Assembly (NCBI RefSeq): GCF_003867075.1
Contig: NZ_CP032544.1
Coordinates: forward strand, 496,001 to 560,000
Length of the DNA: 64,000 nucleotides
Origin: Tenacibaculum mesophilum
Lineage (GTDB): Bacteria; Bacteroidota; Bacteroidia; Flavobacteriales; Flavobacteriaceae
Direction: 5' to 3'
Shown here one piece after another: positions 12,107 to 30,219 of the stretch. Numbering within the stretch: position 1 is the first letter of the stretch; every line of letters begins with the position of its first letter. The notes under the pieces were generated by a model, which was not told the origin of the DNA, did no database searches, and saw nothing but the letters and a program-made list of their open reading frames with translations. The position numbers were made by a program, and so were the translations under genes.

Positions 12107-12138
12107 TTCATCGATACTTTTTGTTCATTCATCGATAG
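12107..12138 (+). promoter_or_regulatory. LytTR-like operator pair A (response regulator/H-NOX operon)
   Basis: Two half-sites, TTCATCGATAC (12107-12117) and TTCATCGATAG (12128-12138), match at 10 of 11 bases and start exactly 21 bp apart. A 9-11-base direct repeat with a two-helical-turn period is the usual layout of LytTR regulator sites. The same motif occurs at four other promoters of this locus. A -7-like box TAATATTG is at 12186-12193 and the gene starts at 12224. Binding by the LytTR protein at 15816-16523 is inferred. Confidence 0.65.
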
Positions 12139-12223
12139 TTAGGTATAAGTAGTCTATTTTTAGATGGAGTGTTAAGAATTTGCATTAATATTGGTATAGT
12201 TAATAAATATATCAGAAAACAAA

Positions 12224-12634
12224 ATGAAGAAAAATCTTAATGTCCTTTTAATAGAAGATAATACTATTGAAGTAATGAAAATGGATAGGACAGTTTCATT
12301 ACTTAAGCTAAAGCATAAAATAATAGAGGCTAAGACAGCCGATGTAGCACTGGAAAAGTTAAATGAAGGATTTGATCCTGATATAATTTTGCTTGATTTG
12401 AATATGCCGAAAATAAGTGGTATTGAGTTCTTGTCAATAATTAAAAAAAATGAAGATTTTAGGCACATACCAGTTATTGTATTAACAACGTCTAATAATA
12501 AAAAAGACATTGTAGAGTGTTATAAAATAGGTATTTCAGGGTACATTTTAAAGCCTTTAAAGTATGAAGATTATATTACGAAAATAGATATAACATTGTC
12601 GTATTGGGCTATTAATGAATTAAAAAATAATTAA
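12224..12634 (+). CDS. receiver-only response regulator
   Basis: A single CheY/Rcp1-like receiver domain of 136 residues without an output domain. The acidic pocket is Glu11-Asp12, the phosphoacceptor is Asp58 (ILLDLNMP), the switch residue is in LTTS (88-90), and the conserved lysine is Lys110 (ILKPL). It is the first gene of a three-gene operon, and the next gene's ATG overlaps its stop codon (TAATG). A receiver without output next to a kinase and a free Hpt protein suggests a Spo0F-like phosphate carrier. It could instead act by binding a partner protein. The upstream operator pair suggests feedback from the LytTR regulator. Confidence 0.92.
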   Translation: MKKNLNVLLIEDNTIEVMKMDRTVSLLKLKHKIIEAKTADVALEKLNEGFDPDIILLDLNMPKISGIEFLSIIKKNEDFRHIPVIVLTTSNNKKDIVECYKIGISGYILKPLKYEDYITKIDITLSYWAINELKNN

Positions 12635-13173
12635 TGAAAGGAATTGTTTTTACAGAGTTTTTAGATTTAGTAGAAGAAAAATTTGGTTTAGAAATGGTAG
12701 ATAAAATTATATCCCAATCAGAGTTAGAATCTGATGGGATATATACTTCTATAGGAACTTATAGTTTTTCTGAAATGTTACAATTACTTGAAAACCTAAG
12801 CTCGAATACAGGTGTTTCTATAGATGACTTGTTACTTATTTATGCGGAACATTTTTTTAGTGTTTTGAAAGAAAGTTATTCTGGACTTTTAGAGTCTTTT
12901 AATGACCCCATAGAAATGCTTTCTTCAATAGAAAATCATATTCATGTAGAGGTGAGAAAAATTTATCCAGATGCAGAATTACCCACTTTTATAGTTGAAA
13001 GTAGAACAGACACATCATTAGTAATGATTTATAAGTCCAATAGAGCAATGCATCATTTCGGATTAGGTTTAATGAATAAAACATTTGAACATTTTAATAG
13101 TAGTGCAACAATAATATTAGAAAAGATTAAAGAAGACGGAACAGAAGTTAAATTTATTATCAATAAAAATTAA
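12634..13173 (+). CDS. H-NOX (haem nitric oxide/oxygen-binding) sensor
   Basis: A 179-residue stand-alone H-NOX protein. The YxSxR haem-propionate motif is Tyr133-Ser135-Arg137, and the likely proximal haem ligand is His104 in the IHVEVRKIYPDA segment. In oxygen-binding H-NOX proteins a distal tyrosine lies five residues after the motif arginine; here that position is Phe142. By established structure-function rules this predicts selective NO (and CO) binding without stable O2 binding. Its start and stop codons overlap those of both neighbours, so it is made together with the receiver and the histidine kinase. The expected role is to bind the kinase and change its activity on NO binding. Confidence 0.9.
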   Translation: MKGIVFTEFLDLVEEKFGLEMVDKIISQSELESDGIYTSIGTYSFSEMLQLLENLSSNTGVSIDDLLLIYAEHFFSVLKESYSGLLESFNDPIEMLSSIENHIHVEVRKIYPDAELPTFIVESRTDTSLVMIYKSNRAMHHFGLGLMNKTFEHFNSSATIILEKIKEDGTEVKFIINKN

Positions 13174-15263
13174 TGAGTCAAAATGAAATAGAGATATTAA
13201 AAAGAGCTTTAAAAAGAGAAAAGGCAGCAAGAAAAATAGCTGAAAAAATATTAGAAGATAAATCTAGAGAATTATTTTTAATTTCTGAAAAACTAAAAAA
13301 AACAAACGAAAAGTTAGAGGAATTATTAAATGAGAAGTCTTCACAACTAAAAGGAGTTTTTGAAAATATTAACGACTCTTACCTAGTTATGGATCTAGAG
13401 GGGAATGTCTTAACAATGAACGATGCTGCTAAAGAACTTTTTGGCTATGATATATCAAAAGAAGATTTAAATGTAAAATCTTTACTACATCCTGAAGACA
13501 CAGTATATGCTTTTGAGTCGTTTGGTAAACTGTACGAAACAGGTACTTTTTCAAACTACACTTCCAGAATTATTAGTAAGGATAAAAAGGTAAAATGGGT
13601 TCAAATTAATGCCAGTATAATTTATAATAAAAAGAATGAAAAAATAGCTGCACAAGGAATTATTAGAAACATTTCAGAAAGTAAGAGAGCAACAGAGTTA
13701 ATTGAAGAGCAGAAGAGAGAGTTAGATATAATTGTTGAAAATTCATCTTTAGGAATAGCATTAGCCAAAGACGGTAAAGTTATAAGAACGAATAAAGTTA
13801 TAGAAGAACTTTTAGGGTATTCTAAAGAGGAGTTTGCAGGATTAACTATTAAAGAAGTGTCTTTTAAAGATGATGTTTCGTTGTCTATGAACCATTTAGG
13901 TAAGATGGAAAGAAACGAAATAGATAATTATGTGATAGATAAACGATATAAAAGAAAAGATGGTTCTATTTTATGGGCTAGAGTTAATGTAAACTCTGTA
14001 AATGATGCTCTAGGACAAACAAAATTTCAAGTTGCTATCATAGAGGATATAACATTACAAAGGGAAAGAGCATTAATTATTGATATGATTAATGAATTGG
14101 CTAAATCTATTTTAGGAAAAGATGATATTTATGAAATAGCCTGGGAAGTAACTGAAAAAATAGCTGAATATTTAGACTCTCAAGACTGTGTAATATATTT
14201 GTTAAACAATGATAATAACACATTAGAACAGATTGCTTCATATAGTTTTGGACTAGATAGAGGAGAGATAATTAAAGATGTTTTATCAATTGGAGAAGGT
14301 ATTATTGGAAGTGTTGCAAAAACAGGAAAAGGCGAAATTATAAACGATACTTCTTTGGATGATAGATACGTTGTTGGTGAAAAGGTTAGATATTCTGAGA
14401 TAGCAGTTCCTATAATTAGTGAAGGTAAGGTGATAGGTGTTATTGATTCTGAACACGAAGAAAAAAATTATTACAGAGAAGAAAACTTACATACATTAGA
14501 AAATATAGCAAGTCTTGTATCTATGCAATTAAAGAGTGCTATAAACTTAAGAGAGAGAAAAAAAGCTGAAAAAGAAAATTTACAACTTTTAAAACAATTA
14601 GAGAAAAGTAATAATGAACTAAATGAATACGCACATGTTGTTTCTCATGATTTAAAATCTCCATTAAGAAGTATTGATGCTTTAGTTTCTTGGATAAAAA
14701 CAGATAATGAGGGTAAATTAGATGATACTACACTTCAAAACTTTAATTTGATAGGAGACACTTTAGAAACAATGGAGAATTTAATTTCTAGTATTCTAGA
14801 GTATTCTAGCGCAGGCTCAGAGGTAAGAGAAAAAGAAGAAGTAAATTTAAATATAATCATAAATAACTTAATTCAAACACTATATATACCTGAAAACATT
14901 TTTATAAATGTCCTAGAAGAGTTACCTACTGTAAAAGGAGACTCTATTAAATACCAGCAACTTTTTCAAAATTTAATAAGTAATGCAATTAAATTTTCAG
15001 ATAAAGAAAAAGGAGTAATAAACATAAGCTTTACAGAAAAACCTTCATTTTATCAGTTTTCAGTACAAGATAACGGAATTGGAATTGAAAAAAAATACCA
15101 TGATCGTATTTTTAAAATATTTCATTCTTTAAAAGAAAGTAAAGAGTCAACAGGTATCGGACTTTCTATTGTAAAGAAAATAGTACAGTTGTATGGAGGA
15201 ACAATGTGGTTAGAAAGTGAATTAGGTATCGGTACAACGTTTTACTTTACCATAAAAAAATAA
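13173..15263 (+). CDS. PAS-PAS-GAF sensor histidine kinase (H-NOX partner)
   Basis: This 696-residue cytoplasmic kinase has no membrane segments. An N-terminal coiled coil (about 1-55) is rich in Lys and Glu. Two PAS domains follow (about 60-165 and 170-290), then a GAF domain (about 300-445), HisKA with the phosphoacceptor His492 (VSHDLKSPLR), and a HATPase domain (about 585-696) with NLISNAIKFS, DNGIGIE and GIGLSIVKK boxes. There is no attached receiver, which fits phosphotransfer to the separate receiver two genes upstream. The ATG overlaps the H-NOX stop codon (TAATG). The H-NOX protein probably docks on the N-terminal region; this is inferred from other H-NOX/kinase pairs. Confidence 0.92.
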   Translation: MSQNEIEILKRALKREKAARKIAEKILEDKSRELFLISEKLKKTNEKLEELLNEKSSQLKGVFENINDSYLVMDLEGNVLTMNDAAKELFGYDISKEDLNVKSLLHPEDTVYAFESFGKLYETGTFSNYTSRIISKDKKVKWVQINASIIYNKKNEKIAAQGIIRNISESKRATELIEEQKRELDIIVENSSLGIALAKDGKVIRTNKVIEELLGYSKEEFAGLTIKEVSFKDDVSLSMNHLGKMERNEIDNYVIDKRYKRKDGSILWARVNVNSVNDALGQTKFQVAIIEDITLQRERALIIDMINELAKSILGKDDIYEIAWEVTEKIAEYLDSQDCVIYLLNNDNNTLEQIASYSFGLDRGEIIKDVLSIGEGIIGSVAKTGKGEIINDTSLDDRYVVGEKVRYSEIAVPIISEGKVIGVIDSEHEEKNYYREENLHTLENIASLVSMQLKSAINLRERKKAEKENLQLLKQLEKSNNELNEYAHVVSHDLKSPLRSIDALVSWIKTDNEGKLDDTTLQNFNLIGDTLETMENLISSILEYSSAGSEVREKEEVNLNIIINNLIQTLYIPENIFINVLEELPTVKGDSIKYQQLFQNLISNAIKFSDKEKGVINISFTEKPSFYQFSVQDNGIGIEKKYHDRIFKIFHSLKESKESTGIGLSIVKKIVQLYGGTMWLESELGIGTTFYFTIKK

Positions 15264-15492: not shown

Positions 15493-15810
15493 ATGGAAAC
15501 CCCGAATTTAAACTATGTTAATGAGTTAGCAAGAGGAGATGAGTCAATAAAAAATACATTGATAGATATAATAAAGACTGAATTTCCAGAAGAAAAAAAT
15601 GATTATTACGAGAGCTTAGAGGAGAGAGATTGTAAAAAATTAGAAGATAATGTTCATAGAATTAAACATAAAATTAGTATTTTAGGTCTTGAAAAAAGTT
15701 ATGAATTAGCTAATGAATTTGAACATAATTTAAGAGATAATAAGATTGATAAAGTTGATGAGTTCGAAAAAATATTAGTTATAATAACAAATTATTTGAA
15801 AACCATTTAA
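15493..15810 (+). CDS. free-standing Hpt phosphotransfer protein
   Basis: This all-helical protein of 105 residues has the Hpt signature HRIKHKISILGL, in which His55 is the expected phosphorylated residue and ILGL matches the conserved LGL segment. It lies 229 bases after the kinase gene and five bases before the LytTR regulator. A single Hpt protein between a receiver-only protein and a DNA-binding regulator is what a His-Asp-His-Asp relay needs. The pairing is inferred from gene order and has not been shown. Confidence 0.82.
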   Translation: METPNLNYVNELARGDESIKNTLIDIIKTEFPEEKNDYYESLEERDCKKLEDNVHRIKHKISILGLEKSYELANEFEHNLRDNKIDKVDEFEKILVIITNYLKTI

Positions 15811-15815
15811 ATTTT

Positions 15816-16523
15816 ATGAATTGTATTATTATTGATGATGAAAAGTTAGCAAGAACTATTATCAAAACTTTGTGTGATGATATAAGTACTATAAATGTGT
15901 TAGGAGAGTTCTCTAATGCTTTACAAGCAATTAAATTTCTAAATGAAGGGCACAAGGTAGATCTTGTTTTTTTAGATATTCACATGCCTGATTTTACTGG
16001 TTTAGATTTTGTAAAAACCCTAAAATCACCACCCCTAGTTATTCTTACAACATCTGACCCTAAGTTTGCAATTGAAGCTTTTGAGTATGAATGTATAATT
16101 GATTATCTATTGAAACCATTGGATGTTAACCGTTTGAAAAAATCAGTAGAAAAAGCTCATAAGAAAAATATAGAAAAACCATTAGAAAAAATAGCTTCAC
16201 CTACTGAAGTAAAAAATGATTTTTATATAAATATAGATAGGCGCCTTATTAAAATAGATTTACCTTCAATATATTTAGTAGAGGCTAAAGGAGATTATAT
16301 AAATATAAAAACAGAAGAAAAAAATTATATAGTACACTCCACACTAAAAAAAATAGAAGAAAAGTTGCCTGATACATTGTTTTTAAAAGTACATCGTTCT
16401 TATATAATTAACTTAAAAAAAATTATAGATATAGAAGATAATAGTGTTTTAATAAAAAAAGATGTTGTTCCTGTAAGTAGATCAAAAAGACCTGAGTTAA
16501 TGAAGCGTTTAGATTTACTGTAG
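15816..16523 (+). CDS. LytTR-family response regulator
   Basis: The receiver domain (about 1-115) has Asp7/Asp8, phosphoacceptor Asp54 (FLDIHMP), the LTTS switch segment and the LLKPL lysine. The LytTR DNA-binding domain spans about 135-235, with the typical IYLVEAKGDYINI, LFLKVHRSYIINL and VPVSRSKRPEL segments. It starts five bases after the Hpt gene. It is the only DNA-binding regulator in this locus, so it is the natural candidate for the five 21-bp-spaced direct repeats found nearby (12107, 16527, 21353, 23010, 30188). Its own promoter shows no clear copy. Confidence 0.93.
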   Translation: MNCIIIDDEKLARTIIKTLCDDISTINVLGEFSNALQAIKFLNEGHKVDLVFLDIHMPDFTGLDFVKTLKSPPLVILTTSDPKFAIEAFEYECIIDYLLKPLDVNRLKKSVEKAHKKNIEKPLEKIASPTEVKNDFYINIDRRLIKIDLPSIYLVEAKGDYINIKTEEKNYIVHSTLKKIEEKLPDTLFLKVHRSYIINLKKIIDIEDNSVLIKKDVVPVSRSKRPELMKRLDLL

Positions 16524-16526
16524 CAT

Positions 16527-16558
16527 TCCATCTAAATAAAAATGCATTTCGTCTATAC
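16527..16558 (+). promoter_or_regulatory. LytTR-like operator pair (T9SS protein gene)
   Basis: Half-sites TCCATCTAAAT (16527-16537) and TTCGTCTATAC (16548-16558) start 21 bp apart and fit the shared TTCRTCKAWA pattern. The end of the site is 49 bases before the first base of a perfect -7 box at 16607. The same distance separates the operator of the REC-GT2 gene from its -7 box. Confidence 0.6.
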
Positions 16559-16606
16559 TAATAACTAATACAACGTGTTGTAAACTTTTTAAAGTATTAA
16601 TAGTCA

Positions 16607-16614
16607 TAGTTTTG
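16607..16614 (+). promoter_or_regulatory. -7 promoter box
   Basis: TAGTTTTG fits the Bacteroidetes TAnnTTTG consensus exactly. No good -33 TTG lies at the normal distance, as expected for an activator-dependent promoter. Transcription should begin near 16620, which excludes the in-frame GTG at 16614 as a start and supports ATG 16638. Confidence 0.6.
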
Positions 16615-16637
16615 TGATATATCAAACACAAAATATT

Positions 16638-19232
16638 ATGAAAAACAAAACTATACTATTAAAAAAAATATTATACATTAAAATAATATTACTTTCTTTT
16701 TCAAGCATAGCACAAGAGCCTTTCAATTGTGTATACGATGCATATTTATTTCAGTATAACGATGTTTATTCTATTGATTTAGCATCAGGAAATTCTTATT
16801 TAGTTAAAGAAGATATTACCCAAGGAAACATAAATGCAGCAGCCTATAATCCAACTGATGGATATATTTGGGGGTCTTTAACTAGTCCAGAAAAAACTAT
16901 TGTTCGTATTGGAAAAGATTTTTCAACAACAACTTTATATATAAATGAATTACCAACAAATAATAGGTATGTGGGTGATATTAGCTCAGAGGGAGTATAT
17001 TTTTTAAAAGGAGGAGGGACTACTTTTTACAAAATAGATTTAAACCCTAACTCGCCAACATATGAAAAACACCTAGAAACCGAAACATTATCTCAAAATA
17101 TCAACATTCACGATTGGGCCTTCAATGCGGTAGATGGAAATTTATACGCAGTAGAAAAGAAAACAAATATTTTATACAGAATAAATCCAAGAACTTATGA
17201 AGTTGAAGCACTAGGAGTAGTACCAATTCTTTCAGGGCTAAATTACACTTATGGAGCAGTATATTTTGATTTATCAGGGCGTTTTTACGTATCAGCAAAT
17301 CAAACAGGAACAATTTACGTAATTCAAAATGTACAAGATATAAAGCTGCCTACCGATATTGAGTCAAATTTATTTGCTTTTGGACCATCAAGTGCTAGTA
17401 ACGATGGTGCTAGATGCCCAACTGCACCAGTGCCACAAGAAATATGTGATAATGGGATTGATGATGATGGAGATGGATTAGTAGATTGTCAAGATCCGTC
17501 ATGTTCAGGTTTTGGAGTATGTGGAGTAATGTTAGCTCCTACATCTGGAGGTAATGAAGGAGGATTGGAAAGTAATGGAAGATTATCTGAATTAATTAAT
17601 AAGAGGAACTACAATAGGACCAAGGTAAATTATAAATTTAATAGAGCAAGTGCAAGAAAATTAAAAAAGTCAGCAAAGTATAGCAAGAGGTCAAAAGGAG
17701 AAATTATGTTAGAAAGTTTCATCCCTTTAGAAGTAATAAAGGAAGATAATGTAATAGAATCAACACCAATAGACCTGTTGGCTATTACAAATGCTACAGA
17801 AATTTATTCAGTAGATTATATGAAAAACGATGTTCCTGTAGCTTCTATATTAGCAATGAAAACCGAAAATGGAGTTTATGAACATTCAAAATATATCTGT
17901 GATCGTTTACTAGGGGCAGAGTTAGTTTCAGTATCAACAATTGAAATTAAAGGAAAACAGTTTATAAAATCACTAATAAGAAATGCTGATAATACAGTTG
18001 AGTTTGTGTTAAGCTTATCAGCTAAAGCAACAAATAATGAAACCCATTTTTCTATAGAAAGCCATTGGAATTTAGATAAATATGAAAAAGATATTACTTT
18101 TTATAATTTTCAAATATGGTCAAACTCGTTAGATGATTTATATCTTCTTGCTGATGAAGTAATTAATTTATTAGAAGTAGTAAAACCAATTTCAGCTTAT
18201 TATTTATCGTCTGCACCAACAGTTTTTGTTAGAAAAGGTAAATATGTTAATGGAATACTTGATCTAGAAATAATTAATACAAATAAGAGTGATAAAGTAA
18301 CTTTTGACTCAGGGTTTAGAAGAACGGAAACAGATGTTTTTAATAAAGCAAGTCAACCATTAAATTTAGAAGAAAATTATATTACAAATATAAAAGTACC
18401 AACAGGAAATTTATTTGATATAGGTTTTAGAATAGGTGATGGTATTGCTACTCCAGATGATTTATTTATGTCTGATGGTCCTTGGGGGGTTGATGACTCA
18501 CAAGAAAACACAACCATAGTAGATTATAACGTATTTCAAAATAAAAATAAATTTAGTGAAGATGATTTCCCTATAGAGAGGAATATATACTTAAAGGCAA
18601 CAACAGAAAGTTATTTTGCTGCATATAGAGCATTAACTCCACGTTTTAGCGCTGTAGATTTATCTGACTACAATAGTTTTAACTTTAAAGCAAGAGGTAA
18701 TGGTAATGTAGAAATAGTTTTATTGAAAAAAAGTATAACATCATGGGAAAATCAATTTAAAACAACAATATTATTGACTGATGAGTTAAATGAGTTTAAA
18801 ATTCCTTTTTCAGAATTTAAGTCAAAAAATGGAGAAGAACTACTATTAAACGATATAACTACAATAACATTTACAATGACTTCAGATGATGGCAGTATGG
18901 TAGTTAAAGAAATGAATTTACAAGATGTTTATTTTTCTAAAAATAGTAAATTAGAGGTGTCAAACTTTAACTTACAAACTAATCAAGTTAAAGTAGTACC
19001 TAATCCTGTAAAAACAGTATCTAAAATTTATTTTAACTCAAAGTATGAAGAATTGGTTAATATTAATATATATAACTCAATGGGTAGGATAGTAAAAACT
19101 ATAACTTTTGAGGCAAAAATAGGAGAGAATATAGTTTCTTTTATAAAAGGAGATCTTAAAACAGGAATATATTTATGTAAAATAATAGGAACAAAACAAA
19201 AGTATAAAACAGTTAAATTATTAGTAGAATAA
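16638..19232 (+). CDS. T9SS-exported surface protein with type A sorting domain
   Basis: The N-terminal signal peptide (MKNKTILLKK... ending near SIAQE) and a C-terminal type A sorting domain (about the last 80 residues, VVPNPVKT to the end, with the NIYNSMGRIV segment) mark this 864-residue protein for T9SS export. The N-terminal third looks like a beta-propeller or lactonase-like fold (residues about 25-260). A calcium-binding type NGIDDDGDGLVDC segment follows, close to residue 275. The centre is unassigned, with a possible carbohydrate-binding-like beta domain around 590-760. I chose ATG 16638 because the upstream GTG overlaps the -7 box. Sitting inside a polysaccharide locus under the shared operator, it could be a matrix or adhesin protein. 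Confidence 0.85.
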   Translation: MKNKTILLKKILYIKIILLSFSSIAQEPFNCVYDAYLFQYNDVYSIDLASGNSYLVKEDITQGNINAAAYNPTDGYIWGSLTSPEKTIVRIGKDFSTTTLYINELPTNNRYVGDISSEGVYFLKGGGTTFYKIDLNPNSPTYEKHLETETLSQNINIHDWAFNAVDGNLYAVEKKTNILYRINPRTYEVEALGVVPILSGLNYTYGAVYFDLSGRFYVSANQTGTIYVIQNVQDIKLPTDIESNLFAFGPSSASNDGARCPTAPVPQEICDNGIDDDGDGLVDCQDPSCSGFGVCGVMLAPTSGGNEGGLESNGRLSELINKRNYNRTKVNYKFNRASARKLKKSAKYSKRSKGEIMLESFIPLEVIKEDNVIESTPIDLLAITNATEIYSVDYMKNDVPVASILAMKTENGVYEHSKYICDRLLGAELVSVSTIEIKGKQFIKSLIRNADNTVEFVLSLSAKATNNETHFSIESHWNLDKYEKDITFYNFQIWSNSLDDLYLLADEVINLLEVVKPISAYYLSSAPTVFVRKGKYVNGILDLEIINTNKSDKVTFDSGFRRTETDVFNKASQPLNLEENYITNIKVPTGNLFDIGFRIGDGIATPDDLFMSDGPWGVDDSQENTTIVDYNVFQNKNKFSEDDFPIERNIYLKATTESYFAAYRALTPRFSAVDLSDYNSFNFKARGNGNVEIVLLKKSITSWENQFKTTILLTDELNEFKIPFSEFKSKNGEELLLNDITTITFTMTSDDGSMVVKEMNLQDVYFSKNSKLEVSNFNLQTNQVKVVPNPVKTVSKIYFNSKYEELVNINIYNSMGRIVKTITFEAKIGENIVSFIKGDLKTGIYLCKIIGTKQKYKTVKLLVE

Positions 19233-21309: not shown

Positions 21310-21352
21310 ATTATTTTTTTGTTAATGCAAGTTAAGCATTAGTATTTAATCT

Positions 21353-21384
21353 TTCATCGAAAGTAAATTGTTTTTCGTCGATAA
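21353..21384 (+). promoter_or_regulatory. LytTR-like operator pair (STAS/flippase operon)
   Basis: Half-sites TTCATCGAAAG (21353-21363) and TTCGTCGATAA (21374-21384) start 21 bp apart. A -7-like box GATATTTG is at 21411-21418, 27 bases after the site, and the STAS gene starts at 21450. The motif orientation points to the plus-strand gene, although the divergent TPR gene shares the interval. Confidence 0.6.
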
Positions 21385-21410: not shown

Positions 21411-21418
21411 GATATTTG
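21411..21418 (+). promoter_or_regulatory. -7-like promoter box
   Basis: GATATTTG matches TAnnTTTG at every fixed base but the first. It starts 39 bases before the STAS start codon, like the boxes of the other four operator-bearing genes (31-39 bases). Confidence 0.4.
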
Positions 21419-21449: not shown

Positions 21450-21728
21450 ATGGCTTTACAAATTTCAGAAAACAACGGAACTTTTTATTTAAACGGAAAA
21501 ATTAACAATACAACAGTTAGATCTTTTATAATTCATTTTGAGTACTGTATAGAAAAGTGTAAAAATGTTGTAATTAACATTGATAACGTAAATGAGATTG
21601 GAGTAACAGGCTTGAATGCTATTAAAACATTAATGGCAATTGCATTAAAACAGCATAAAATGTTCTCTGTAGTAGGGTATGGATGCAAAGAAGTTTATGA
21701 TCATTTTTATTCTTCACAAGTAGCTTAA
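21450..21728 (+). CDS. STAS-domain (anti-anti-sigma-like) protein
   Basis: A 92-residue single STAS domain. In SpoIIAA-type proteins the phosphorylated serine comes just before a Gly-Leu pair; here the matching segment is VTGL, with Thr53 in that position, so phospho-switching is possible but unproven. No anti-sigma kinase or PP2C phosphatase gene is in the window. It heads a unit with the flippase gene 19 bases downstream. It may act as a local partner switch on polysaccharide enzymes rather than on a sigma factor. Confidence 0.8.
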   Translation: MALQISENNGTFYLNGKINNTTVRSFIIHFEYCIEKCKNVVINIDNVNEIGVTGLNAIKTLMAIALKQHKMFSVVGYGCKEVYDHFYSSQVA

Positions 21729-21747: not shown

Positions 21748-23004
21748 ATGATAGCAATAATAAAAAATAATTATAGAATTAACTCAGAGCATTTATTTAT
21801 GATAAGTGCTCTTTTAGTAAATGGAGGAAATTATATTTATAACCTATTACTAGGTAGAATTCTTGGGCCAGAAAAGTTTGCTGATGCAGCAATTATGATA
21901 ACTTTTTTATTAGTGTTTTCTTTTGTCGCTATGACTTTTCAATTAGTTACAGCAAAATTTTCTGTGATATTTGAGCAAAAAATTCTTAAGTCGTTTATTT
22001 ATAAGATGAATAGAATAGCTGTCATATCTGGAGTTGTTTTAGGTATAGCAATAGTTTATTATTCTAAAGACTTACAACTTTTTTTTAAAACAACAACATC
22101 TAATATGTTCGTTATTTTTGGAGTAGGGGTTCCATTATACTTTTTAATGAGTATTAATAGAGGTTTTTTTCAGGGTAAAAAAAAATTTGGAGCTTTAGCA
22201 GTTACTTATCAATTAGAAATGATAAGTAGACTGGTGTTTACACTAATATTATTATATTTTTTAGAAATAGATTCATCAATACTTATTGCAATAGGTATTT
22301 TTTGCTCTTTTTTATTTGGGTTAATACCTTTCAAGATTCAAAAGATAAAACCAATAAAAGAAATTAAATTAAGTGTATCTCAAAGAAAAATGATACGTAG
22401 CTTTTTTTTAATTACTGTTTTTTATGAGCTTACTCAAATAATTATTAACAATAGTGATATTTTATTGGTAAAACATTATTTTGAGACTTATGATGCAGGT
22501 TTATATGCTTCACTAGCTTTAATAGGTAGGGTGGTTTATTTTGTAACGTGGATGTTTGTAATGTTATTGTTACCAAAAGTAGTACAATTAAAAAAGGAAG
22601 GCAAACCCACACGTTCAATTTTATTAAAAAATGTAGGTTATATTTCATTGCTAATTGTGGTATTAGTTGCTGTATGCTCTCTTTTTCCTAAAGAAGTTGT
22701 ATTAATATTATTTGGGAAAGATTATATAGCTATAGCTCCTTTATTATGGAAGTACGCACTTGCTACGGGAGTTTTTGCAATATCTAACGTTTTTGCATAC
22801 TATTATCTATCTTTAGATAAATACATACCAGTCGTAGCATCTGGTATTTTTGGGTTACTACAAATTATCTTTATAGTCTTGTATCATAACACATTAGGTC
22901 AAGTGGTAAATATGCAAATTTTAGCAATGACACTATTATTAAGTTTACAATTAAGTTATTTTCTTTTAAGAGATACTAAAAAACCAACAACATCTAAACA
23001 TTAA
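21748..23004 (+). CDS. polysaccharide flippase (Wzx/MATE-like)
   Basis: An integral membrane protein of 418 residues with about 12 hydrophobic segments and the look of oligosaccharide flippases/O-antigen transporters (NYIYNLLLGRILGPEKFADAA near residue 28). Members move lipid-linked sugars, or in the PelG branch polysaccharide, across the inner membrane. It follows the STAS gene closely and precedes a GT4 glycosyltransferase with its own operator. It is the likely inner-membrane step of the polysaccharide route here. Confidence 0.83.
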   Translation: MIAIIKNNYRINSEHLFMISALLVNGGNYIYNLLLGRILGPEKFADAAIMITFLLVFSFVAMTFQLVTAKFSVIFEQKILKSFIYKMNRIAVISGVVLGIAIVYYSKDLQLFFKTTTSNMFVIFGVGVPLYFLMSINRGFFQGKKKFGALAVTYQLEMISRLVFTLILLYFLEIDSSILIAIGIFCSFLFGLIPFKIQKIKPIKEIKLSVSQRKMIRSFFLITVFYELTQIIINNSDILLVKHYFETYDAGLYASLALIGRVVYFVTWMFVMLLLPKVVQLKKEGKPTRSILLKNVGYISLLIVVLVAVCSLFPKEVVLILFGKDYIAIAPLLWKYALATGVFAISNVFAYYYLSLDKYIPVVASGIFGLLQIIFIVLYHNTLGQVVNMQILAMTLLLSLQLSYFLLRDTKKPTTSKH

Positions 23005-23009
23005 TACCA

Positions 23010-23041
23010 TTAAACTACAGATATCTGTATTTCAACTAAAA
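23010..23041 (+). promoter_or_regulatory. LytTR-like operator pair (GT4 gene)
   Basis: Half-sites TTAAACTACAG (23010-23020) and TTCAACTAAAA (23031-23041) start 21 bp apart and agree at 8 of 11 bases. They are the weakest of the five pairs against the shared pattern. A -7-like box GATCTTTG follows at 23068-23075, 27 bases after the site, exactly as at the STAS promoter. Confidence 0.5.
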
Positions 23042-23067: not shown

Positions 23068-23075
23068 GATCTTTG
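23068..23075 (+). promoter_or_regulatory. -7-like promoter box
   Basis: GATCTTTG differs from TAnnTTTG only at the first base. It starts 33 bases before the GT4 start codon and 27 bases after the operator pair. Confidence 0.4.
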
Positions 23076-23100
23076 AAATGTAAATTAAACAATACTAACC

Positions 23101-24318
23101 ATGAGACTAGCAATTGTAACAGCATATCCACCAAGTAAAGTAACGTTAAATGAATATGCATATCATTTAGTTAAAAACTTTAGACAAAAACAAGAAGTAA
23201 CGGAGCTTATATTGTTAACAGATACAACCAAAGAAATAAAAGATGTTAGTTTTATTGAAAATGGCTGCAAAGTAACAGTAAAAGAATGTTGGAAATTTAA
23301 TAGTTTATTTAATATTATAACAGTAACTAAAGCTATTAATCAAGTAAAGCCAGATGCTATATTATTTAACCTACAATTTATGAAGTTTGGAGACAAGAAA
23401 ATTCCTGCAGCTTTAGGCTTAACTTTACCACTGGTTTGTAAACTAAAAAAAATACCAACAATAACTTTGTTACATAATATTTTAGAGCAGGTAGATTTAA
23501 AGAGCGCAGGTTTTACTTCTAATAAGCTTTTACAAAAAACTTATAACTTTATTGGTACTTGTTTAACAAGGTTAATTTTACAATCAGATACTGTAGCTGT
23601 AACTATTGAAAAATATGCAGTGATTTTAAAAGAAAAATATAAAGTTAAGAATGTAAAGTTAATACCTCATGGTACATTTGAAATTCCAAAAAAACCATGT
23701 TACGAGTTGCCAAAAGGTCCCATGAAAATAATGACTTTTGGAAAATTTGGTACTTACAAAAAAGTAGAGGCTATGATTGAAGCAGTTGAAGTAGTGAGAA
23801 GTACAACAGGATTGAATTTAGAAATAGTTATAGCTGGTACTGATAATCCGAATGTAAAAGGGTATTTAGAAGGAGTAAAGGAAAAATATAAAAATGTATC
23901 TCAGATTGTTTTCACAGGATATGTAGAAGAAAATGAAGTAGAAAATTTATTTAAAGAAAGTGCTGTAGTAGTTTTTCCTTATACCTCTACAACAGGCAGT
24001 TCTGGAGTTTTACATCAAGCTGGAAGTTATGGAAAAGCAGTTGTAATGCCTAATTTAGGAGATTTAGCATTGCTTGTAAAAGATGAAGGTTATAAAGGTG
24101 AATTCTTCGAACCAGAAAGTGTAACAAGTTTAGCTAAAGCAATAGAAGCAATCGTAATAGATGAAAATTATAGGGTAGAATTAGGTAAAACAAATTATAA
24201 GGCGGCAACAAAATATCCTATGGAAAGAATAGCAAGTTTATATCTTGAAGAGTTTTCTAAAATTATAGAAACAAAAAAAATAACATCAAAAAACTTAGTA
24301 ACCAATTCTACTGTTTAG
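23101..24318 (+). CDS. GT4-family glycosyltransferase
   Basis: A 405-residue GT-B-fold glycosyltransferase. The N-terminal Rossmann half starts MRLAIVTAYPPSK. The C-terminal donor half contains the KIMTFGKFGTYKK strand-loop and the VVFPYTSTTGSSGVLHQAGSYGKAVV donor-site segment. It should be cytoplasmic and use a nucleotide sugar; donor and acceptor are unknown. Its 3' end overlaps that of the convergent GH5-like gene by 11 bases. It has its own operator pair and is probably a monocistronic unit. Confidence 0.88.
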   Translation: MRLAIVTAYPPSKVTLNEYAYHLVKNFRQKQEVTELILLTDTTKEIKDVSFIENGCKVTVKECWKFNSLFNIITVTKAINQVKPDAILFNLQFMKFGDKKIPAALGLTLPLVCKLKKIPTITLLHNILEQVDLKSAGFTSNKLLQKTYNFIGTCLTRLILQSDTVAVTIEKYAVILKEKYKVKNVKLIPHGTFEIPKKPCYELPKGPMKIMTFGKFGTYKKVEAMIEAVEVVRSTTGLNLEIVIAGTDNPNVKGYLEGVKEKYKNVSQIVFTGYVEENEVENLFKESAVVVFPYTSTTGSSGVLHQAGSYGKAVVMPNLGDLALLVKDEGYKGEFFEPESVTSLAKAIEAIVIDENYRVELGKTNYKAATKYPMERIASLYLEEFSKIIETKKITSKNLVTNSTV

Positions 24319-25825
24319 AAATATATTTAAAAGAAGGTTTCTTTTCCCCATTATTTTTAATAAACCCGAATTTTTTTTGTGGGTTTACTCTCCAAGGGCG
24401 TTTACCTACAACGCCCTTTGGTATTTTACTAAAATCGTATAAAGTCCAAGAAAGAAAAGGAATATTGTTTGTTGTTAAAATATGCTGCATGTTTTTAAAA
24501 TATTCAGCTTGTTTTTTTTCAGACCCCTCAAAAAAATTCCATATACCACTATATGAAGACATACCAAACTCTCCTAAAACAATGGGTTTGTTAGGCAAAT
24601 TAGATTTTAACTTTTTATACTTTTTCTCAAACATTTCTAAATTATCATAATAATGGAAAGAAATAAAATCTAATTTATCACTTAAAAGGTGAGCACTTTC
24701 AGTGTTTGACCAGCCAATAGTTACAGGGTGTTTTGTATCAATGGATTTAACCAAGTATAATAAATGTTCTAACCAAGGAATAACGTTTTCTTTCCCTCTG
24801 GATTTAAAATCTAAATTAGGTTCATTTTTTAAATCCCATGCTAAAATGGCATTATGGTTTTTAAATTTTGAAACAATTTTCTCAGCATGTTTGAAGGTAA
24901 AAGTCCAATCTAGCACATCGTAATTTCCATAAAAATCAAACAGAGTAACAATTACCTTTATTCCTTTTTTATCAGCTAAATTTAATAGTAAATTGAGTTT
25001 TTTTAATTTGTTTTCATCCACATTTTCCTTCCCGAAATCGTCATAAGGAACAAATATCCTAATAGTATTTAAATTTGCTCTTTTTATAATATTAAAGTCT
25101 TCTTCAATAATTTTTAATTCAAAATTATCACCAAACATGCTCCATGGAGTAGCTTGAGGGTAATAATTAATACCTTTAATATTAGTATATTCTAGATTTG
25201 TTTTCTTTAAATCTTCTTGAAAAGAAGATGAACCTTCTTTAACAAAATGTCTTATACGCCAAAAACCATCTTCAAGTAACAAAATGGCTTTATAGTTTGA
25301 AAACTCTGTAGTTTCATGAATATTATATTTATTTTTAATTATTCTTTTATACTCTAAAACATTTTTATCTTCTAAAACAGCTAATTGTCCGTCTTCACTA
25401 AAAAAAACAATATCAGGATTATGCTTTAGAGTTGTAGCGTCTATTGTAATGTTTAGGGAATCGTTATATTTAATGATATTCTGTATATTTTTACGAGCAT
25501 TTTTAGTGTAATAATCGTTTATACCTGTAGTAAGATTAGATTTATAAGCAATATGTTTAACATACCAACCATCTAAATAATCTTTTTCAATTTCAGTTAA
25601 GGTTTGTGTATCCATAATTCTACCTTCATTTCCATCTTTTACCCAGGTTATTTTAGGTATGTAATTACGAATATCTTTTAATTCGGTGTGTAATATTTTA
25701 CTTCTATCAGCACCTGTGTTAAGGTAACTGTATAAAGAGCTAATTAAAAAAAGGAGCATAGAAATAATAATAATGTAAAATATTATTAAAGATGAACGCA
25801 TTATGTTTTTATCTATACCTACCAT
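24308..25825 (-). CDS. membrane-anchored GH5-like glycoside hydrolase
   Basis: The 505-residue protein has one N-terminal membrane segment (about 11-35). A region of about 80-200 resembles an NTF2-like accessory domain (EDGFWRIRH near its end). A cellulase-type TIM barrel covers about 215-500. The GH5 catalytic pair is visible: acid/base Glu335 in DLKNEPN and nucleophile Glu419 in LGEFGMS. It probably faces the periplasm. Hydrolases of this kind in polysaccharide loci trim or release the growing chain. It overlaps the upstream gene by seven bases. ATG 25825 is used; ATG 25801 is an alternative that removes the overlap. Confidence 0.82.
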   Translation of the reverse strand: MVGIDKNIMRSSLIIFYIIIISMLLFLISSLYSYLNTGADRSKILHTELKDIRNYIPKITWVKDGNEGRIMDTQTLTEIEKDYLDGWYVKHIAYKSNLTTGINDYYTKNARKNIQNIIKYNDSLNITIDATTLKHNPDIVFFSEDGQLAVLEDKNVLEYKRIIKNKYNIHETTEFSNYKAILLLEDGFWRIRHFVKEGSSSFQEDLKKTNLEYTNIKGINYYPQATPWSMFGDNFELKIIEEDFNIIKRANLNTIRIFVPYDDFGKENVDENKLKKLNLLLNLADKKGIKVIVTLFDFYGNYDVLDWTFTFKHAEKIVSKFKNHNAILAWDLKNEPNLDFKSRGKENVIPWLEHLLYLVKSIDTKHPVTIGWSNTESAHLLSDKLDFISFHYYDNLEMFEKKYKKLKSNLPNKPIVLGEFGMSSYSGIWNFFEGSEKKQAEYFKNMQHILTTNNIPFLSWTLYDFSKIPKGVVGKRPWRVNPQKKFGFIKNNGEKKPSFKYISKQ

Positions 25826-27030
25826 AGTTCTATGTTTTTAAATTCTTTGTAAATACCAGCAGCGTCAGTAGTTATTTTATATATCCCTTTTGGTAAAATA
25901 TTAGGGTTTAAGTTAAAATATACATAACCATTTTGTGTTTCTTTGATGAATTCTTGTATCAAGATGTTGTTTTGGTATAGTGAAACTTTAACCTTTAATC
26001 CATCAGGTATCATTTGCCCCATAAAACTTTGTAATGGTCCTATACTAATAGTTCGATTCTTTTCAGTAAAAGAAACTATATAATTTTTAATAGCCTTTTT
26101 ATAATCTAATATTATCCTATCACTTTCAGCAATTCCAATAACATAAGCTTTTACAGACCATTGATCTTCATAATCTGGATGAACTATTTTTGCAGTAGCA
26201 ATACCGTTGATAGTAGTACCTGATGTTTTCAATACATTTCCTTTACTATTAGTAATAAAAAAATCTACAAAACTACCATCACTTATAATATTATCATTAG
26301 TGTCTTTTAATTGTGATGTATATAAGGTTGTAATTTGATTTCCATCTGCATACTTGTGATGTCTTTTAGCAAAAACGTTAAAATTAACAGGAATTGCAGG
26401 CATTATATTAATATCATATTCCTTAGAGTGTAATTTAAAACAGTTTGAAGAAATTAAAACTCTACCGCTTTTTGTAGGAGAGTATATGTTTTTGTATGCG
26501 ATTAAGTTTTTAGTAAATACTTTTTCTTTTTGGGTATCTGTTAAAAATTGTTGATTTATTGTAATAGGGGTGTTTTTTTTAAGAGGATTGTCCAATATAT
26601 CTGTTGGTATGGTAACAATCATTGCATAATCTTTTCCACCTGCTTCTATACTAGGGGGACCTAAGTAGGTTTCTATAAATGTAGGTTTATTTTGTGCAAT
26701 TATAGTAATCTTACCAGAAAGTACTTTTTCAGTATTAATGAGTGACCAGTTAATGATACCTTTTTTTTTGCTTAAAAACATTGGAATATCAAAGATTAAA
26801 GAATCTTTTTTAGAGGGGGTAATTATAGTGCTACCATAACTATTAGCGCAATATAGTTTGTATTTTGTAGATTTATGAGTATTAAACTTTAGTTGAATTA
26901 AAGTTCCTGCTAAAAACTCTTTTTTTGTGGATAATAACTTTAAAGTTGTATTATTACTTTCATTGTATTGTGCGTTTACACAACTAATAAATAAGCATGT
27001 GATACTAAAAAAAAACTTCTTTTTAAACAT
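25819..27030 (-). CDS. exported Ig-like protein of unknown function
   Basis: I do not recognise a named family. The 403-residue protein has an N-terminal signal sequence (residues 1-20, ending near VNAQ). It is otherwise beta-rich, with a run like bacterial Ig/invasin modules (about 215-310, YADGNQITTLYTSQLKDTN...). It lies in a tight minus-strand unit, two bases from the upstream GT-C-like gene and overlapping the hydrolase gene by seven bases. The context suggests a periplasmic or surface accessory of the polysaccharide machinery. Confidence 0.7.
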   Translation of the reverse strand: MFKKKFFFSITCLFISCVNAQYNESNNTTLKLLSTKKEFLAGTLIQLKFNTHKSTKYKLYCANSYGSTIITPSKKDSLIFDIPMFLSKKKGIINWSLINTEKVLSGKITIIAQNKPTFIETYLGPPSIEAGGKDYAMIVTIPTDILDNPLKKNTPITINQQFLTDTQKEKVFTKNLIAYKNIYSPTKSGRVLISSNCFKLHSKEYDINIMPAIPVNFNVFAKRHHKYADGNQITTLYTSQLKDTNDNIISDGSFVDFFITNSKGNVLKTSGTTINGIATAKIVHPDYEDQWSVKAYVIGIAESDRIILDYKKAIKNYIVSFTEKNRTISIGPLQSFMGQMIPDGLKVKVSLYQNNILIQEFIKETQNGYVYFNLNPNILPKGIYKITTDAAGIYKEFKNIELW

Positions 27031-27032
27031 CG

Positions 27033-30000
27033 TTACTTTGGATTTCCTATAAAGTTATTCATTTCAATTTTTACATATTTATATTTAGGGTGTGAAATTT
27101 TTTGCAATTCTGAAAAAGCGTGATTTTTAACCCTATTTGGAATCAATTTGTTAGAGATTTCTTCGTTGGGAAGTCCATTAACAAAACAATTTTGCATATC
27201 ATCATTAATAAATATGATTTTTTTATCTTCTAACAATTTATAATTAAAATGTTTTTTGCGTTGTTGTCTAATGCCACTTTTAATAAATAAATGATCTACC
27301 CAAGCTATTTTTTTATCTTTATTATAGTATGTAATGATTAATTGAGGTACGGTAATCTCTTGAATTCCACTGTTAAACAATGTTCCTTTTATGTTTTTTT
27401 CTTCTATAATAAGCTCACTTAAGGCAAGGTCTTTATATAAATCAGAATTAGAAACATTTCCAGCTGCTTGTAAATTGAATTTAGTAGGTTGCTCTTCAAA
27501 CTCAATAGGTGTAAACTCATCAGGATTAAATGTTTTTGGTATGGAATCAAGTGTTTTGGACCAGGCTATACCTTCAAAATTAATCCTAAAAGAACTAATC
27601 TCTTTAGGCATTAGTTTATGTTTTATATGATACTTTGCATTATAAGTAGCTAATTTTTTATTCGAATCATTATATAAAGTACCTTTAATAACAACATCTG
27701 CAGGTACATTATCTATGTTTTGTATTTCACCAATAATAGCATAATGATTATCAAATTTCACGAGCTTAGCTGTAACGATTTCTAAAACAGGTTGTTTTAA
27801 AACATCTTCATGGTGAGTTTGTTCAGTTGTAATTCTTTTTCTTCCTTGATTAAAATATCCTGTTTTATTATTTGAGTAAAGTTGATCAGGAGGTAAATCA
27901 AAATCAATTACATCAGGTTGTAAAAACCATTTACCGTTTAGTTTAATAGCCGTTTTATAATCTGTTTTATTAATTTTTTCTAAAGGTGTAATCCATTTTG
28001 TATGCACAGTTATAGTAGCTAAGCTATCTGTTTTTTTAGTAACAACAGTATTTAAAGCGTCTAGTTTAGCATAAGAGCTTAATAAACCATCAGTAACAGA
28101 GACTTCTAACATATATTGTGCTATTGAAATATTACTTTTTGGATTAATAAGGTTGTAAGCTTTTTCAAATTGTTTAAAATCTAAAGCATCATAATAAGAT
28201 ATTACAAGGTTTTCGGGCGATTGCTGTGTATTGTTTTCAAGATAAAATTTATACATACCAAAAAAAGAAATAACAGTTAAAAACAGTAACCATATATGAG
28301 CAAAGGGTAATACTTTTTTTGTAAATCCAGAGTAATTTTTATAGGCTTCAATACATAGCACGTAAGTATTCTTTCTCATTTTTATGTGCTTGTTAAATAA
28401 ACTCTTGACATTTAAAAGTAAAGCGAAAATAACAGTTAGAAAAGGAACTGTTCCCCAAAGTAATTTTTGCCATATAGCTACATCTTCTTTTGGTAAAATA
28501 GAAGAGAGAGGTGGAATGTTTAATTTTTCCCAAACTATTATACCGTTTTCTAAAGGAGATAATCTTTGCCAACCACAGAAATATAAGATGGGATCATAAA
28601 ATTTATCATTAGAAAAAATATATTTTAAATTATACTTTTCTGGAGTTGTTAAAAATTGTTGAAGCGATCCAATACCGGCAATACCTTTGAATTTTGAATT
28701 TTCAAGTCGTTCTATAGGCCTTGTTGTAAGTTCTGGTAAACGTCTTGCAGAATGATAATTTCCATCTACAGTCATAGCGTTTGTTTGAGCAGATAACCAT
28801 GCCATTTGATCTCCAAAACCAAGTGTAAGATAACGCCATTGGTCGTGTTGATCTTGGTTTAGAAAGTTAATAATAGGCAACATTTTTATTTTTTGAGGCT
28901 GTGATGGTCTAAAATAGCCAAGACTCATTGTAAAAATAATGGTAAATAAAAATAAAGAGGCTATTAATCCTGCAAGTAAACGATGGTAAATTCTTCCTAA
29001 TTTTTTATGAATAACGTTTTTTAAATCACCATGTATAAAGTGATAGGTTATTTCTCCAAAAAGTGGTATTGCCATAATAGAAGCCCATAGGGTAAATCTA
29101 TCTAAGGTTAAAATATTAAAAGCATTTTCGCCCAAAAGTTTTAAAGGAACTGGGGTAGTACCTCCTGTTCCTAAAATAAAAAGCATAGTAAAAGAAATAC
29201 CAATAAATAAAAAACGCTTACTAAAATATCTATAAAAAAAATAAGGAAGAAAAACTAAAAGTATTCCCCAAGGAATCATAAAAAAAACCAAACCAGAAGA
29301 TGTAACTTCTAGAAAATTATCTCTAGAACCATGTGGTATTGGAATTTGTGTAATAGGATTTTTTTTAGAGTTAATCCAGTAAGGTAGTAAGCACCCTACT
29401 ATGATTACTAGAGCTAAAATTATAAAAAGGATATTATACTTAAACTGAGATTTAAATTTAACTAAGAATAATTTAAATGTAATTTTCTTATACGATTTAA
29501 CTTCATCAAAACAAACATCCATAATAACCATTCCTATTAAAGGTAAAATAAAAAATACCATTCCAAAAATAGGAGTAACATGATGCGAGGTTACAGTAAC
29601 TGAAATTAAAGAAAGAGATGTAAGTAAATATTTATATTTTTTTGTTTTTAACCACAAATAAATCTCGGGTAAAGCATGCATTAAAACAGAAACACCAATA
29701 ATACTGGGTAATTGTCCAAAAATATGTAGTGTTTCTAAAAAAGAAGAAGAAAGAGCAGCTGTAATTGCTGCATAACCAGCTATTTTTTTATTAGCAGTTA
29801 TAAGTAGAGAAAAACGATATGCACCAGAAATAAAAAGTATAACGCCTATTATAGCTACAGTAAAAAGCCCAAATTTTAACCCTCCTATATACGACAAAGC
29901 AGCAATTGATTGATGTACCAGAGGTGGGTAGCTCATTACCGTAAATCCAGTATACCATTTGTAGTTCCAAGGCTCAAACCAATTACTTGCATAATGCTCT

Positions 30001-30122
30001 GCAAAAAACAAATGTATTAGAGCATCATATGTGTTTTCTAGGGTAAAAAAGATAAAAGAACCATGAAAAGCTATACCCAAAAGAAGCGCTAATATTAAAA
30101 GTTTGTTTGATTCCTTTCTCAT
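27033..30122 (-). CDS. large GT-C-like membrane protein with FxLYD-type domain
   Basis: A 1029-residue protein. About a dozen membrane segments lie in residues 8-590, with an acidic ENTYDALIHLFFAEHY segment in the first loop, as in GT-C glycosyltransferases, followed by one more membrane segment near 620. Then comes an NTF2-like domain (about 640-740) and an FxLYD-like beta domain (about 780-870, VGE/IGEIQN pattern) and a second beta domain (about 900-1025). It may be a lipid-linked-sugar glycosyltransferase or polymerase of the polysaccharide route; the family assignment is by layout. It is the first gene of a three-gene minus-strand operon divergent from REC-GT2. Confidence 0.7.
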   Translation of the reverse strand: MRKESNKLLILALLLGIAFHGSFIFFTLENTYDALIHLFFAEHYASNWFEPWNYKWYTGFTVMSYPPLVHQSIAALSYIGGLKFGLFTVAIIGVILFISGAYRFSLLITANKKIAGYAAITAALSSSFLETLHIFGQLPSIIGVSVLMHALPEIYLWLKTKKYKYLLTSLSLISVTVTSHHVTPIFGMVFFILPLIGMVIMDVCFDEVKSYKKITFKLFLVKFKSQFKYNILFIILALVIIVGCLLPYWINSKKNPITQIPIPHGSRDNFLEVTSSGLVFFMIPWGILLVFLPYFFYRYFSKRFLFIGISFTMLFILGTGGTTPVPLKLLGENAFNILTLDRFTLWASIMAIPLFGEITYHFIHGDLKNVIHKKLGRIYHRLLAGLIASLFLFTIIFTMSLGYFRPSQPQKIKMLPIINFLNQDQHDQWRYLTLGFGDQMAWLSAQTNAMTVDGNYHSARRLPELTTRPIERLENSKFKGIAGIGSLQQFLTTPEKYNLKYIFSNDKFYDPILYFCGWQRLSPLENGIIVWEKLNIPPLSSILPKEDVAIWQKLLWGTVPFLTVIFALLLNVKSLFNKHIKMRKNTYVLCIEAYKNYSGFTKKVLPFAHIWLLFLTVISFFGMYKFYLENNTQQSPENLVISYYDALDFKQFEKAYNLINPKSNISIAQYMLEVSVTDGLLSSYAKLDALNTVVTKKTDSLATITVHTKWITPLEKINKTDYKTAIKLNGKWFLQPDVIDFDLPPDQLYSNNKTGYFNQGRKRITTEQTHHEDVLKQPVLEIVTAKLVKFDNHYAIIGEIQNIDNVPADVVIKGTLYNDSNKKLATYNAKYHIKHKLMPKEISSFRINFEGIAWSKTLDSIPKTFNPDEFTPIEFEEQPTKFNLQAAGNVSNSDLYKDLALSELIIEEKNIKGTLFNSGIQEITVPQLIITYYNKDKKIAWVDHLFIKSGIRQQRKKHFNYKLLEDKKIIFINDDMQNCFVNGLPNEEISNKLIPNRVKNHAFSELQKISHPKYKYVKIEMNNFIGNPK

Positions 30123-30187
30123 TGAAATTTATATAGTTAGCTTTTGTTATTGTAAATATAAACGATTTAAAGATATAATATTTTTTG

Positions 30188-30219
30188 TTTAACTAAAGTA
30201 AACTACCATTCGTCTAAAG
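30188..30219 (+). promoter_or_regulatory. LytTR-like operator pair (REC-GT2 gene)
   Basis: Half-sites TTTAACTAAAG (30188-30198) and TTCGTCTAAAG (30209-30219) start 21 bp apart and share 8 of 11 bases. The site ends 49 bases before a perfect -7 box at 30268. It lies between two divergent units, so it could also influence the GT-C operon, but the repeats read in the plus direction. Confidence 0.6.

Follow-up and report, generated by a model that had tools for sequence, protein, structure and literature searches.

A conserved three-box array at five promoters of a predicted exopolysaccharide locus in Tenacibaculum mesophilum, the likely operator of the LytTR regulator of a predicted H-NOX phosphorelay

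A stretch of 64,000 nucleotides of the Tenacibaculum mesophilum genome (assembly GCF_003867075.1, contig NZ_CP032544.1, positions 496,001 to 560,000 of the forward strand; this whole stretch is called the window here, and positions are counted from its first letter) carries five arrays of direct repeats with a 21-bp period, each standing before a gene or operon of a predicted exopolysaccharide locus. It is likely that the arrays serve as operator for the LytTR response regulator whose gene is at 15816..16523, by way of which a predicted H-NOX phosphorelay would activate its own operon together with an exopolysaccharide regulon. Five genes or operons of the locus are probably controlled jointly, through this one regulator, by what is predicted to be a nitric oxide (NO) relay. 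That the repeats mark a single regulon read by the LytTR protein had been the original prediction. It is still the best-supported reading of these sequences, resting on sites found out of sample, on Pfam domain assignments and on co-occurrence across genomes.

The half-site pairs begin at 12107, 16527, 21353, 23010 and 30188, exactly where they had been placed, and the two starts of each pair are exactly 21 bp apart. Each pair is 5' of a gene and shares the orientation of that gene, and T1, C6, A8 and A10 are indeed invariant across all ten half-sites. The consensus that was drawn from them, TTCRTCKAWA, is too strict: six of the ten half-sites fit it exactly, and both halves fit in the 12107 and 21353 pairs only. 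A description in terms of two boxes is sound as far as the pairs go, but it overlooked a third in-phase box and a fixed distance to the promoter, both described below.

Exact matches to the two-box pattern number two in the window (none of 100 shuffles reaches two) and two in the whole 3.34-Mb single-contig genome, both at the locus. A genome-wide scan, which had been proposed as a check, is informative at high stringency, where matches are confined to the locus, and yields noise at low stringency. TTCRWCKAWA boxes with at most one mismatch have four matches in the genome, all at the locus; those with exactly two mismatches have 13, one of them at the locus (23010) and 12 elsewhere; the two-box pattern with up to three mismatches has 202, against 378 for the reversed control, and is thus not enriched. 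A looser box, scanned at no more than one mismatch through 58 genomes, was of little use (nine matches in T. mesophilum itself, seven for the control). The -7 element was added to the pattern after these low-stringency scans had proved uninformative. Combining the box TTCRWCKAHA with TANNTTTG at the observed distances (three offsets were searched) picks out, at two mismatches or fewer, exactly the five sites in the entire genome. With three mismatches there are eight matches beyond the locus (the three runs gave 4, 2 and 2); the one near 49643 is still within the window. Since the motif was derived from the five sites themselves, the independent test is conservation.

With the LytTR protein as query, at least 546 confirmed relatives are found, and the analysis went on with the 80 best of them (loci L023-L102, 1.53 Mb in all, drawn among others from Kordia, Tenacibaculum, Polaribacter, Winogradskyella and Algibacter). 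Pairs with two mismatches or fewer number 109 in these loci at a period of 21, and 1-13 at each of the 15 other periods from 15 to 30; 101 of the 109 lie outside open reading frames (ORFs) longer than 400 nt. A matrix built from the ten half-sites of the window alone was then applied to the 200 bp upstream of those orthologues whose N-terminus was covered, at a 1% threshold set with 553 shuffled regions. Sites are found before the single-domain response regulator (RR), which is the first gene of the relay operon, in 76 of 76 regions, before the STAS-domain gene (STAS) in 33 of 36, before the GT1-group glycosyltransferase (GT1) in 30 of 37, before the secreted protein (SEC) in 33 of 46 and before the receiver-glycosyltransferase fusion (RR-GT2) in 6 of 13. 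There are none before three internal genes of the operon (H-NOX 0/67, Hpt 0/79, LytTR 0/80; together 0/226), one before the kinase (1/20) and four before the flippase (4/40); for GH5, the 403-aa (amino acid) gene and the 1029-aa gene the counts are 0/9, 0/2 and 1/2. The regions before the TPR gene score 0/46 on their own strand and 44/46 on the opposite strand, because the TPR gene is divergent from STAS. When the period is changed to 19, 20, 22 or 23 at the same threshold, 10, 19, 19 and 13 RR regions pass, as do 2, 9, 7 and 2 for SEC, 5, 6, 4 and 1 for STAS, and 2, 5, 3 and 2 for GT1; one strong box can carry the whole score. The reversed matrix passes no RR region, one SEC, four STAS, two GT1 and 8 of 80 LytTR regions.

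The repeating unit of 21 bp that emerges from aligning 178 sites of the relatives is close to CCATTCRTCKAYA(C/G)TWAA; C occupies +5 in 100% of the sites, +26 in 99% and +47 in 68%. The Bacteroidota -7 element (the same TANNTTTG, taken at 5/6 or better) lies at +79/80 or at +58/59 from the best pair: 31 RR sites have it at +79 and 16 at +80 (shuffles give about one per offset), and 17 STAS sites have it at +59 (shuffles, 0.4). These two distance classes, far and near, differ by 21 bp, and the offset that is by far the best for an extra half-site is +42 in the 96 far sites and -21 in the 40 near ones. Across the relatives, therefore, the operator consists of three in-phase boxes, the last of which starts 37-38 bp before the -7 element. 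C at +47 tracks the far class (85/96 against 10/40; Fisher p 7e-13, with kinship ignored). No TTG is conserved at -33 in the aligned sites. The candidate sites have the build of LytTR targets, in that they are direct repeats of about 9-10 bp that recur every 21-22 bp and lie 5' of promoters. A sigma-70 promoter scan did no better than shuffles (117 against a shuffle mean of 123.8).

The five arrays of the window follow this plan, with 79, 80, 79, 79 and 80 bp from the first of the three boxes to the -7 element in operators A to E. (Every operator and -7 element, each relay gene and the first gene behind each operator are on the + strand.) Operator A (12107..12158; boxes at 12107 and 12128, a weak third at 12149) precedes the RR gene, and its -7 element TAATATTG (12186..12193) is a 5/6 match. 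Operator B (16527..16578; boxes at 16527 and 16548, a weak one at 16569) is followed by TAGTTTTG at 16607..16614, which matches 6/6, and by SEC at 16638..19232 (DUF6923, with a type IX secretion system sorting tail); the -7 element overlaps GTG 16614, so that ATG 16638 is taken as the putative start of SEC in its place. In operator C (21332..21383) the weak box, at 21332, comes before those at 21353 and 21374, and GATATTTG (21411..21418, 5/6) is 58 bp from 21353 and 79 bp from 21332; the STAS gene is at 21450..21728 (PF01740, E = 2.5e-5), and after it comes a flippase-like gene at 21748-23004, the product of which is below the Pfam cut-off for PF01943. Operator D (22989..23040) likewise has a box at 22989 ahead of those at 23010 and 23031, with GATCTTTG (23068..23075, 5/6) 58 bp from 23010 and 79 bp from 22989, and serves GT1 at 23101..24318 (PF00534, E = 1.8e-18). 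Operator E (30188..30239; boxes at 30188 and 30209) has a 6/6 element, TATTTTTG, at 30268..30275 and precedes RR-GT2, a receiver domain fused to a GT2 glycosyltransferase (30303..31511, with a presumed start at ATG 30303; PF00072, E = 1.2e-23, and PF00535, E = 1.2e-20), after which a phosphomannose isomerase gene starts at 31561 (PF20511, E = 1e-31). With the revised starts the -7 element is 23-31 nt from the ATG in all five units. Another 5/6 match to the -7 element stands at an unrelated offset in three of the five (+48, +37 and +47 for A, C and D). None of the flippase-like, STAS, 403-aa and 1029-aa proteins has a family in NCBIfam, and a PHROGs search with the 25819-27030 protein returned nothing. 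At 32790-33787 there are two adjacent and related genes for hydrophobic proteins (32% identity over 108 residues), apparently a tandem duplication.

The operon behind operator A encodes, in this order, a response regulator, an H-NOX protein, a PAS/GAF kinase, an Hpt protein and the LytTR regulator. The input side of this set, that is, all but the last, was missing from the original prediction and was found here with Pfam. RR (136 aa, 12224..12634) matches PF00072 (E = 3.1e-22); the H-NOX haem gas sensor (179 aa, 12634..13173) matches PF07700 (E = 5.6e-39); the histidine kinase (13173..15263) has the domain order PAS-PAS-GAF-HisKA-HATPase; the Hpt phosphotransfer protein (15493..15810) matches PF01627 (E = 1.4e-5). 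The LytTR protein, which is the proposed reader of the operator, combines a receiver (PF00072, E = 3e-18) with a LytTR DNA-binding domain (PF04397, E = 1.7e-21), the sole DNA-binding domain that Pfam finds in the five operon proteins scanned. Searched by tblastn, the 80 loci give a match to RR in 77 cases, to H-NOX in 70, to the kinase in 80 and to Hpt in 79. The acceptor residues are kept almost without exception in the aligned relatives: the phospho-Asp of RR in 77/77, the kinase His in 79/80, the Hpt His in 79/79 and the Asp of the LytTR protein in 80/80, so that His, Asp, His and Asp acceptors are present on kinase, receiver, Hpt protein and regulator. The H-NOX protein keeps its haem His in 69/69 relatives and, in its YxSxR motif, Y in 69/69, S in 70/70 and R in 66/70, with K in the remaining four; it has the HNOB fold. 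Its matches in the PDB include 6bdd (E = 6.5e-98) and 6bde (E = 2.4e-97), which we take to be the Kordia algicida H-NOX, although the PDB entry names say otherwise. Pfam finds no Response_reg match in the kinase, which thus does not look like a hybrid kinase of the Vibrio type, and because of this a split, four-step His-Asp-His-Asp relay made up of the five proteins is the natural reading of their sequences. In several relatives (L048:4046, L060:4039, L072:5721, L082:5663, L085:4037 and others) a gene of about 93-132 aa lies just 5' of the relay operon. These genes share an LKHLEFI-like motif and have their own operator; the two that were scanned have no Pfam match.

A survey of 58 genomes of the genus for the LytTR protein, H-NOX and the promoter-linked motif bears on the connection between operator and regulator. 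A LytTR homologue (about 50% identity or more) is present in 45, and H-NOX in 34, of which 32 also have the LytTR homologue (Fisher p 0.0008). G045 and G048 have only a partial LytTR match; the one in G045 (C8:1439593-1440000; residues 99-235, 68% identity) lies within a 1812-aa open frame, which may be a large fusion. Two promoter-linked patterns, searched at two mismatches or fewer, have 36 and 40 matches against 10 and 8 for their reversed versions, with some sites counted twice. Genomes with the LytTR homologue have 74 matches against 16 reversed, and the 13 without it have two against two. When both proteins are present, 28 of 32 genomes have the motif (65 matches against 11); with LytTR only, 3 of 13 (9 against 5); with H-NOX only, 0 of 2; with neither, 2 of 11 (2 against 2). 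To the eye, the matches in G016, G032 and G041 look like the second LytTR system's array (see below) and not like the H-NOX operator.

Several observations weigh against the proposal that the LytTR protein reads these operators. The relatives are not mutually independent, so that the counts given above exceed the number of separate events, and 42 of the 178 aligned sites have no recognisable -7 element at the expected place. The third boxes of the window itself are weak (percentiles 0.024, 0.070, 0.049, 0.006 and 0.22; combined p 0.005), and that of operator E, at 30230, is not supported. Ten of the 13 genomes that have the LytTR homologue without H-NOX lack a match, and the motif therefore tracks the H-NOX module more closely than it tracks LytTR presence. 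In nine of these 13 the best LytTR match is 56-59% identical and there is no motif. As a group, the LytTR-only genomes argue against a simple rule by which the motif would be read by any closely related LytTR protein. G052, an 80% complete genome in which no LytTR homologue was detected, nevertheless has a strong array. Finally, another LytTR regulator of the same genome might read the five sites, or cross-talk at them.

The last point belongs to a rival explanation, in which a different DNA-binding protein, such as another LytTR protein of the genome, reads the operator and the 15816-16523 regulator controls something else. The co-occurrence pattern just described and the array of G052 speak for it, and so does G024, where an H-NOX operon without a LytTR gene carries sites with -7 elements at +79 and +80 and lies about 170 kb from a LytTR gene that is 74% identical. 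(A third locus of G024, RR-Hpt-LytTR, the last 60% identical, has a 32-bit pair starting 8 bp past the LytTR stop codon, with no -7 element at the expected offsets. The G024 relay is split between places, L136:1-6000 and L135:11000-12700, both with arrays.) There is, in addition, a second system in T. mesophilum, outside the window: a kinase-LytTR pair at G000:C1:881296-883120 (L132:3297-5121), its LytTR protein 38% identical, is preceded by CTCAACTAAA, TTCGTATAAA and TTTGTCAATA at L132:3207, 3228 and 3249 (from 881206), again with a 21-bp period, and by TAATTTTG, a 6/6 -7 element, at +78. The box type is thus not exclusive to the H-NOX module. The second array is loose: the full matrix, which was trained on the relatives, gives it -11.3 and -3.3 bits, against 21.9 to 30.6 for the five sites of the window, and such a looser box in the same register supports LytTR proteins as readers of this type of box. 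Around the two LytTR genes of the genome that come next in similarity (36-38% identical), one of which is that of the second system, no site above 9 bits is found within 8 kb. Against another reader there stand, besides the looseness of the second array, the position of the LytTR protein as the one operon product with a recognised DNA-binding domain and the presence of the operator on the operon that encodes it in all 76 relatives tested, and we consider this alternative improbable.

Computation gives the sites with their register and conservation, ties them to the module and shows the acceptor and haem residues to be conserved; from this we infer LytTR binding, activation, and NO as the signal, the last because of membership in the H-NOX family. 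The H-NOX protein, as predicted NO sensor, would act on the histidine kinase, from which phosphate would pass to the stand-alone response regulator, to Hpt and so to the LytTR protein. LytTR molecules would be aligned on one face of the DNA (21 bp being two helical turns) by two strong boxes and a weaker one, and would bring RNA polymerase to promoters without a -33 element. With its last box ending some 27 bp short of the -7 element, the array is in an activator position. The relay operon would be among the activated promoters, making for positive feedback, and the other targets would be SEC, STAS/flippase, GT1 and the receiver-GT2/phosphomannose isomerase genes of the predicted exopolysaccharide locus. 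Alternatively, the LytTR protein might bind and repress, by blocking the promoter. CoxC has been reported to repress in this way, with three direct repeats at its promoter, and its operator overlaps the -35 box (in the part of PMC11347149 relied on here). The spacing of the arrays of the window is different, and the want of a conserved -33 TTG fits an activator-dependent promoter, both of which make repression unlikely here. That the arrays are chance or compositional products (TTCATC-like words are common, being acidic-residue codons on the reverse strand, and 21 bp is seven codons) is refuted by their period specificity, their conservation at orthologous promoters as found with the window-only matrix, their tie to the -7 element, their position mostly beyond ORFs and the count of 243 sites against 0-1 for reversed or permuted matrices (for a full matrix trained on these same loci), even though the genome background at up to three mismatches, probably of coding nature, is not above the reversed control.

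Those 243 sites are what the full matrix finds above 17 bits in the 80 loci, the reversed matrix giving none and 12 column permutations 0-1 each. The genes 3' of them are RR (72), SEC (43), STAS (35), GT1 (25), RR-GT2 (1) and flippase (1); 30 more precede other genes, 31 have no ORF behind them and five are inside one. Pfam was applied to eight of the 30 other genes. Four have no match; L069 and L077 have a match to UDP-glucose/GDP-mannose dehydrogenase, L069 another to an outer-membrane efflux-type protein and L070 one to a CAP-domain protein. To judge from these resemblances, some relatives have the same operator in front of another kind of polysaccharide cassette. By sequence resemblance also, L092, L099 and L102 have different polysaccharide cassettes beside a relay with operator. 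In T. mesophilum itself, beyond the window, a three-box array with a -7 element (G000:C1:942284-942335) lies upstream of a second, unlinked STAS gene, which follows an apparent rRNA methyltransferase gene (region to 942671; L133:2285-2675). Of its orthologues, L139 (83%) keeps boxes and -7 element and L140 (83%) has decayed to 3.4 bits; two more distant relatives score 17.7 bits (L141, 37%) and 2.7 bits (L142, 35%). A site at 3024333 (L134) was dropped, there being no ORF of at least 80 aa downstream on its strand within L134.

RR-GT2 deserves separate mention. All 14 aligned relatives keep its phospho-Asp, and eight of eight keep both Asp residues of its DAD motif, so that the fusion, which is under operator E, may represent direct phospho-control of an enzyme. 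It would be a second, enzyme-level output of the relay, which is speculation. As a still bolder and doubtful suggestion, the relay could control matrix polysaccharide twice, through the three-box LytTR operator set on varied exopolysaccharide cassettes of the Flavobacteriaceae and through phosphorylation of the receiver-GT2 protein so induced.

The kinds of protein are known; as judged from sequence comparison, the circuit that they appear to form is new and widely conserved. In a split phosphorelay of the Spo0F/Spo0B type, kinase, stand-alone receiver, phosphotransferase and DNA-binding response regulator are separate proteins. The predicted relay is like it in having these four components separate, and differs in its unrelated output domain and sensor and in being encoded entirely in one operon. 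H-NOX/kinase signalling in Shewanella and Vibrio feeds cyclic di-GMP enzymes or the LuxU/LuxO quorum pathway and is linked to biofilms (PMC6769237, as excerpted). Those systems share with the T. mesophilum operon an H-NOX gene beside a histidine kinase, and phosphotransfer steps, but in this operon the receiver and the Hpt domain are on proteins of their own, the kinase shows no receiver match, and the output is a LytTR DNA-binding regulator. Among LytTR operators, those of CoxC and RcoM, which serve gas-sensing proteins, are three direct repeats with two-turn spacing (PMC11347149), and operons of Bacteroides that resemble the LytTR regulatory system (LRS) have predicted repeats before a TATCTTTG -7 element (PMC6193735), as far as the excerpts of these papers go. 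The arrays described here are like them in being direct repeats of about 8-11 bp with a two-turn period just 5' of the promoter. They differ in the box (TTCRTCKAYA here, TCCGGTATTCA or TTCNNGCA there), in having a receiver-domain regulator fed by a predicted relay, and in the use of one array type in at least five transcription units. The operon also departs from an LRS in that no inhibitory membrane protein is encoded with its five genes (RR, H-NOX, kinase, Hpt, LytTR). A full-text search, which reached few subscription papers, found no published account of an H-NOX to LytTR relay or of its operator.

The H-NOX proteins of marine Bacteroidota have been studied as isolated gas-binding proteins; that of Kordia algicida, for example, has been used in a molecular dynamics study (PMC7356049, as excerpted). 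The locus supplies an H-NOX sensor of this group with a predicted relay, a DNA-binding output, a promoter-registered operator and a list of candidate targets in many genera. The fixed distance from box to -7 element amounts to a computable rule for LytTR-controlled promoters in the phylum, and one that already flags a second LytTR system.

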